Part shown: positions 9,734 to 10,050 of the stretch, piece by piece | How positions within the stretch are numbered: position 1 is the first letter of the stretch | Layout of the letters: each line of letters starts with the position of its first letter | Origin: Chloroflexota bacterium | Lineage (GTDB): Bacteria > Chloroflexota > UBA5177 | Reading direction: 5' to 3' | DNA: 40,917 nt | Assembly (NCBI GenBank): GCA_025966365.1 | Contig: JAICWV010000013.1 | Location: 1 to 40,917, forward strand | Translations under genes and position numbers: made by a program | The notes under the pieces: model-generated | Database searches by the model: none | What the model was told of the DNA's origin: nothing | The model's input: the letters and a program-made list of their open reading frames with translations, nothing else

Positions 9734-9877
9734 GACTCAATTGAATATCCGCAGTGAACGAGAGTAGTAGGTCATTCCTTCAGCGAGCCGGGGCAGTGAG
9801 AGCCGGCACAACGACCGAACTCGCTCGGGAGCGGCCGGGGAGCACCCGATACAGTGCTAAAATGAGCGGCCAGAGTG

Positions 9878-9988
9878 CGGTCGGGCTGAGCTTGCGGGGC
9901 TGTGGCGCAGTTGGGAGCGCGTCTCAATGGCATTGAGAAGGTCAGGGGTTCGAATCCCCTCAGCTCCACCAACTTTCTCAGTCGACCG
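9878..9988 (+). other. Clamp helix enclosing the nested tRNA-Ala
   Basis: CGGTC (9878-9882) pairs with GACCG (9984-9988), and CTGAG (9886-9890) pairs with CTCAG (9977-9981). Between them G9884-C9983 and G9885-U9982 also pair, leaving only G9883 bulged. This makes 12 base pairs. The innermost pair is five nucleotides from each end of the mature tRNA (CTTGC at 9891-9895; ACTTT at 9972-9976). The helix lies inside the T-box leader and would carry the tRNA on its tip. Confidence 0.7.
9896..9971 (+). tRNA. tRNA-Ala (GGC), nested in the leuS T-box leader
   Basis: The acceptor stem GGGGCTG/CAGCTCC contains G3:U70, the alanine identity pair. The D-stem is GCGC/GCGC. The anticodon stem is TCTCA/TGAGA with loop ATGGCAT (anticodon GGC, codons GCC/GCU). 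The T-arm is AGGGG-TTCGAAT-CCCCT. The discriminator is A and CCA is encoded at 9969-9971. Every helix is intact, so it should be a functional tRNA rather than a mimic. It lies between T-box Stem I/III and the T-box antiterminator, upstream of the terminator, and so would be made whether or not leuS is read through. Confidence 0.93.
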
Positions 9989-10018
9989 GCTTTGGCAATG
10001 CGGGTGGTACCGCGGATA

Positions 10019-10050
10019 ACCCTCCGTCCCGGGTGGATGGAGGGTTTTTT
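10019..10050 (+). terminator. T-box-controlled intrinsic terminator before leuS
   Basis: ACCCTCCGTCC (10019-10029), loop CGGGT and GGATGGAGGGT (10035-10045) form an 11-bp stem with one G-U pair, followed by six T (10045-10050). The 5' arm can instead pair upstream as part of the antiterminator that carries UGGU (10005-10008). The leuS Shine-Dalgarno GGAGG (10057-10061) lies beyond it. Confidence 0.92.

Follow-up and report, generated by a model that had tools for sequence, protein, structure and literature searches.

In a 40,917-nucleotide stretch of DNA from a Chloroflexota bacterium (contig JAICWV010000013.1, hereafter termed the window), the leader of the leucyl-tRNA synthetase gene leuS is a leucine T-box riboswitch that carries a complete tRNA-Ala(GGC) gene inside its Stem III. 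The same nesting is found in other bacteria, and its anatomy, its conservation and covariation, the promoter position in relatives, the integrity of the tRNA and its near-unique copy number can be observed directly. We consider it very probable that this is a two-output arrangement, in which one promoter would supply both the functional tRNA-Ala(GGC) that caps Stem III and a leuS mRNA that is under the control of leucine.

All features of the locus lie on the forward strand. Downstream of rpmA (9369-9623) a tRNA-Ala(CGC) gene (9658-9733, detected by ARAGORN and Rfam) adjoins the T-box on its 5' side. With permissive filters, the Rfam T-box model RF00230 matches positions 9745-10034 at full length (model positions 1-219 of 219), including the nested tRNA, with 67 bits and an E-value of 1.9e-14; the gathering score is 93, and the default Rfam scan gives no match for the window T-box. 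The model places a 114-nt insert within Stem III. A search with the Rfam T-box and tRNA models had been proposed as a check in a previous sequence-only reading of the window, and the tRNA model on its own recovers the tRNA with 65.5 bits. Nested relatives, among them L018, L021 and L004, score above gathering (107.6, 105.8 and 93.7 bits), and the match also spans the nested tRNA in L015, L005, L002 and L007. The poor scores of nested leaders in T-box searches may be due to the tRNA, which makes Stem III resemble a huge insertion.

In the RF00230 alignment, Stem I (9751-9832) shows the kink-turn, the AGUAG specifier-loop motif, the AG bulge and the distal loop, and presents the leucine triplet CUC as the specifier (9820-9822). 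The Stem II positions of the model are deleted in this alignment, indicating that a canonical Stem II is absent from the window T-box, and a short CGGG/CCCG element (9836-9848) is found at the position of Stem IIA/B (F-box). Stem II is not obligatory for every T-box, being absent from the glyQS class; some of the nested relatives, for instance L018, apparently possess it. The purine motif GAGCG (RRRxG, 9864-9868) is followed by the 5' strand of Stem III (9869-9890, 8+7+5 pairs), a 5-nt linker (9891-9895), the tRNA-Ala(GGC) (9896-9971), a second 5-nt linker (9972-9976), the 3' strand of Stem III (9977-9996) and the dinucleotide AA (9997-9998). Hence the canonical RRRxG-StemIII-AA frame (9864-9998), whose purine motif and AA are kept in relatives, is intact around the tRNA. 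Passages of PMC7583486 and PMC7778990 describe this frame as a motif of T-boxes in general.

The antiterminator (10002-10030), delineated from the RF00230 alignment and the sequence, consists of A1 (10002-10004/10028-10030), the bulge UGGUACC (10005-10011) and A2 (10012-10016/10023-10027). Its UGGU (10005-10008) fits the discriminator A73 of tRNA-Leu(GAG), which is cognate to CUC and present in the genome. Specifier, downstream leuS and genomic tRNA-Leu(GAG) agree with each other, as in a T-box whose specifier is cognate to the regulated amino acid. An intrinsic terminator (10018-10050, -20.7 kcal/mol in RNAfold, with a U tract) shares the strand 10020-10030 with the antiterminator, which makes the two folds mutually exclusive, and it precedes the open reading frame of leuS (10068-12542, 824 aa). 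The specifier and the UGGU are where the sequence-only reading had positioned them, and that reading likewise had a terminator between tRNA and leuS. Strong LeuS matches were obtained in most genomes sampled from the window's phylum. Elsewhere in the window, a large bacterial SRP RNA is found at 40311-40575 (180 bits).

The sequence-only reading had placed the tRNA between Stem III and the antiterminator; it is actually located inside Stem III. RNAfold predicts that the two strands form 20 bp that bracket the tRNA (-32.4 kcal/mol). When the whole leader is folded, nearly all of these pairs have probabilities of 0.97-1.0, three being lower (0.89, 0.67 and 0.33), and the acceptor stem of the nested tRNA reaches 0.89-0.99. 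Moreover, when the 3' flank is dinucleotide-shuffled 1000 times, a single shuffle equals its pairing with the 5' flank. The pairing of the flanks in the window is beyond chance, and the nested tRNA caps Stem III in place of a loop. Since folding brings the two ends of a tRNA next to each other, it can be accommodated on Stem III with the RRRxG/AA frame undisturbed.

The nested tRNA-Ala of the window has an intact cloverleaf, the G3:U70 pair, the anticodon GGC and an encoded CCA according to ARAGORN and Rfam (RF00005), which bears out the initial description of a complete tRNA gene in the T-box. G3:U70 is kept in 134/134 nested loci, all seven acceptor pairs are formed in 132/134, and alignments of the nested loci show compensatory changes in every tRNA arm. 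In 38/135 loci CCA is not encoded and is therefore dispensable for nesting; these 135 comprise 133 tRNA-Ala(GGC), one tRNA-Ala(CGC) and one chance tRNA-Thr. The assembly of the window genome yields 41 distinct tRNA sequences, and no tRNA-Ala(GGC) was found among them besides the nested gene. Of 11 further genomes examined, 8 likewise show the nested copy as their sole tRNA-Ala(GGC). This sole-copy status implies that mature tRNA-Ala would be made from the nested gene and charged in the cell. Leucine control is not expected for a tRNA that is always needed, in agreement with its position ahead of the terminator.

To determine how widespread the arrangement is we used a neutral search pattern, any tRNA T-loop followed 27-59 nt on by any T-box antiterminator, with the reversed pattern as a control. 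In 400 genomes of the window's phylum about 52 matches read as nested tRNA-Ala and the control gave a handful of matches. The Syntrophomonas phylum was sampled with 300 genomes, of which about 58 had matches of this kind, while the control had none. A scan of one genome per species, covering 84,980 species, yielded at least 120 pattern matches; among the matches listed, ARAGORN found tRNA-Ala in 114, and nested loci occur in Bacillota, Chloroflexota/Thermomicrobiota, Armatimonadota and Atribacterota. In total, at least 134 distinct loci have a tRNA-Ala inside a T-box, 133 of them tRNA-Ala(GGC) and one tRNA-Ala(CGC). L262 and L306 are nested too, with the antiterminator variants GAGTGG and GCGTGG. 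Three pattern matches that contain no tRNA (L066, L069 and L167) and one in Frankia that has a tRNA-Thr and shows no signs of leuS or a T-box (L131) were set aside as chance. For L073 and L162 the sequence stretch ends within the locus.

The specifier is CUC in most nested loci, and leuS lies downstream at all but about five, which are at contig ends or have another next gene. Reading the translations by eye, we found ilvE between the T-box and a more distant leuS at L082, L098, L116, L129 and L133; this ilvE-leuS order is seen at nested loci of Armatimonadota and Chloroflexota and agrees with leucine as the sensed amino acid. One of these loci, L129 from Anaerolineales, has the nested tRNA-Ala(CGC) instead of GGC, together with a CUU-like specifier. 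Other first genes were observed as well: in L065, L087 and L104 (Desulfotruncus, Desulfallas and a Bacillota MAG) it resembles an AMP ligase of the acyl-CoA-synthetase type, followed by leuS in L087 and L104, and in L084, L091, L101, L145 and L170 (Chloroflexota MAGs) it is GNAT acetyltransferase-like with leuS farther on. Two nested T-boxes, L079 and L159, are in MAGs labelled Proteobacteria and Desulfovibrio; the label of L079 is probably wrong, since its LeuS is identical to that of a Chloroflexota genome (G005).

Among leuS genes sampled without selection, the T-box motif is present upstream of 14/30 in the Syntrophomonas phylum and 11/27 in Chloroflexota. The tRNA is inside the T-box in 7 of the 14 and 7 of the 11, respectively, and two more have a variant motif. 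In these two groups, roughly every second leuS T-box, if not more, is thus of the nested kind. In a LeuS tree the nested loci are spread over several deep clades, with seven changes between nested and plain T-boxes, which suggests that the nesting is old and has undergone losses or moves, rather than stemming from one recent transfer.

Covariation of Stem III was assessed by blind anchoring, with the last RAGNG 5' of the tRNA and the AA 5' of the antiterminator as anchors and six positions scored. Pairing amounts to 74.7%, compared to 51.9% in 2000 permutations (sd 1.8, maximum 58.6), kinship being ignored. An alignment of 21 loci, the subset with aligned anchors, was counted in addition: 22 Stem III cells are changed on both sides, as against 6.6 when shuffled, and the covariation score of 0.641 compares with 0.248 after shuffling and with 0.179 or less after sliding, again with kinship ignored. 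The rows of this alignment were picked because they form a helix of 5 bp or more and are supporting only, a bias from which the blind-anchored test is free; RNAalifold missed Stem III where the 5' strands were misaligned. Random swaps of the 3' flank, scored by unconstrained duplex energies, give a mean of -15.0 versus -12.0 with few top ranks, and are a poor test because similar short stems are common to many Bacillota. Outside the window the uninterrupted pairing of Stem III is 5-11 bp, and the linkers to the tRNA are usually short, mostly 0-10 nt on the 5' side. The helix bracketing the tRNA is kept by covariation across phyla.

We then surveyed promoters at 125 loci. Sigma-70-like promoters (at least 10/12 matches) cluster 160-240 nt 5' of the tRNA, just 5' of Stem I, many of them with 12/12 matches and a 17-nt spacer; few are located in the interval from Stem I to the tRNA. 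In some Chloroflexota the promoter lies 5' of the upstream tRNA-Ala(CGC), near -280 to -340. The only promoter-like site that a consensus scan finds on the forward strand in 8800-10100 of the window is a weak one (8934-8963, 9/12) 5' of rplU-rpmA, which makes it a weak candidate for the promoter of the whole unit, about 930 nt 5' of the tRNA. A separate promoter or terminator between Stem I and the tRNA, named in the sequence-only reading as an observation that would speak against it, was not seen in the window. There is no room for a promoter between tRNA-Ala(CGC) and Stem I, so that this tRNA is probably on the T-box transcript. In several Chloroflexota, with the promoter just 5' of tRNA-Ala(CGC), the two tRNAs and leuS may share one transcript.

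From these features we infer how the locus would be transcribed and processed, including a constitutive tRNA output and a leucine response. One promoter 5' of Stem I, or in some Chloroflexota 5' of the preceding tRNA-Ala(CGC), would drive the unit. The tRNA-Ala would be transcribed ahead of the leucine-controlled terminator and released from each transcript by normal tRNA maturation. Uncharged tRNA-Leu(GAG), its acceptor end being read by the RRRxG/AA frame, would bind the specifier (CUC) as well as the bulge (UGGU) and stabilize the antiterminator; only then would leuS, or sometimes ilvE-leuS, be reached. Since the tRNA gene precedes the terminator, tRNA-Ala would most likely be produced from all transcripts and leuS only from those of leucine-starved cells.

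Other explanations have to be weighed against this two-output reading. The assembly comprises 253 contigs, one of which is the window, and this might hint at an assembly or chance artefact, the probability of which is negligible: among 61 related genomes searched, the full leader has matches within the window's family at 78-79% identity, and the same gene order occurs in G001 and G004 of that family as well as in genomes assembled into one or two contigs. Misassembly combined with relatives whose T-box lacks the tRNA, which the sequence-only reading had named as a refutation, is not what we see, as close relatives keep the tRNA. The upstream tRNA-Ala(CGC) is likewise present in G001 and several Chloroflexota. 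It is also quite improbable that tRNA-Ala(GGC) and leuS are simply an old pair of neighbours around whose tRNA, having its own promoter, a T-box came to lie by chance. This explanation can draw on one Chloroflexota family (f7) and G039, where a tRNA-Ala is just 5' of an intact T-box, and on L303 (G021) and L304 (G011), where tRNA-Ala(GGC) is directly 5' of leuS with no recognizable T-box; in the latter two genomes the linkage of tRNA and leuS appears to have outlived the riboswitch. However, the tRNA is repeatedly found nested in Stem III within a preserved RRRxG/AA frame, and the strong promoters lie 5' of Stem I, with few promoter-like sites between it and the tRNA. In five Chloroflexota loci (L010, L011, L012, L013 and L017) tRNA-Ala(GGC) is just 5' of a complete leucine T-box, not inside it.

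Two further explanations assign the insert a different role. At all nested loci it lies between sensor and switch, and its approximately 76-110 extra nt might act as a kinetic spacer that delays the antiterminator and prolongs the period in which tRNA-Leu can dock on Stem I, the identity of the insert tRNA being incidental. We regard this as unlikely, since an incidental insert would not have been preserved in 134 loci as an entire tRNA-Ala(GGC) that has G3:U70; moreover, the nested tRNA is usually the sole copy and the T-boxes of neighbours do without an insert. Alternatively, the ACCA end of the nested tRNA-Ala could compete for the UGGU bulge, so that the switch would also read alanine or tRNA maturation. 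The discriminator A73, as in tRNA-Leu, would in principle permit ACCA-UGGU pairing. This is nevertheless very unlikely, because CCA is unencoded in 38/135 nested loci, the 3' trailer in the leader would block the sensing pocket, and leucine is indicated alike by the specifier, by the leuS/ilvE genes downstream and by the cognate tRNA. A processing-coupled switch is a possible, if doubtful, alternative: RNase P would split the leader, and the timing of the cut relative to the termination choice would itself be regulatory, the cut either disabling or resetting the leucine sensor, or the pieces acting as a split riboswitch via Stem III. RNase P is expected to cleave at an intact tRNA, and Stem III, which covaries across phyla, would join the pieces (-32.4 kcal/mol in the window, 5-11 uninterrupted bp elsewhere). 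Yet Stem III is a general T-box part whose conservation alone is no argument for joining cut pieces, and transcriptional T-boxes choose during synthesis, likely ahead of tRNA maturation. The claim of the sequence-only reading that the RNase P cut separates sensor from switch may be wrong, both because Stem III pairing can hold the pieces and because the termination choice may precede cleavage. We can only tentatively suggest that in the two-output class the tRNA-Ala is cut out while the T-box continues as a two-piece RNA joined by Stem III, which would physically couple processing and leucine control.

If the two-output reading is correct, one promoter can supply a stable RNA that is needed at all times together with an enzyme induced by starvation, and the question arises whether a T-box survives an RNase P cut in the middle of its leader. 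The arrangement is experimentally accessible, as it occurs in at least four phyla, including the cultured Syntrophomonas wolfei and Dictyobacter aurantiacus. The sequence-only reading had called it apparently undescribed, and we too found no description of a tRNA gene nested in a T-box in the open literature searched. The nested T-box thus appears to be a new and widespread variant, of which an earlier mention in subscription papers is possible. Going by the searched literature, no riboswitch that has a functional tRNA gene within the sensing domain would have been described before.

Compared to the leucine-class T-boxes (RF00230) found 5' of leuS, the nested ones share the kink-turn Stem I with its specifier loop, the CUC specifier, the RRRxG-StemIII-AA frame, the UGGU bulge, the exchange between antiterminator and terminator, and the downstream leuS. 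They differ in that a complete tRNA-Ala gene replaces the Stem III loop, and the window member additionally lacks Stem II. T-boxes are stated, in a passage of the review PMC7583486, to carry "curious insertions in every domain", the role of which is unknown. The nested T-boxes likewise have extra sequence within a domain, but here the insert is a functional tRNA gene at a constant place and of a nearly constant isoacceptor. Co-transcription of tRNA genes with mRNAs is known from metY-nusA and thrU-tyrU-glyT-thrT-tufB. There, too, a tRNA and a protein gene are on one transcript and are parted by processing; the tRNA, however, lies beside a regulatory RNA, not inside it, and no riboswitch terminator separates the two outputs. 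Finally, the spacer tRNAs of rRNA operons are framed by long processing stems. Both systems have a helix-framed tRNA that is cut from a longer RNA, but in the nested T-box the framing helix is a working part of the leucine sensor.
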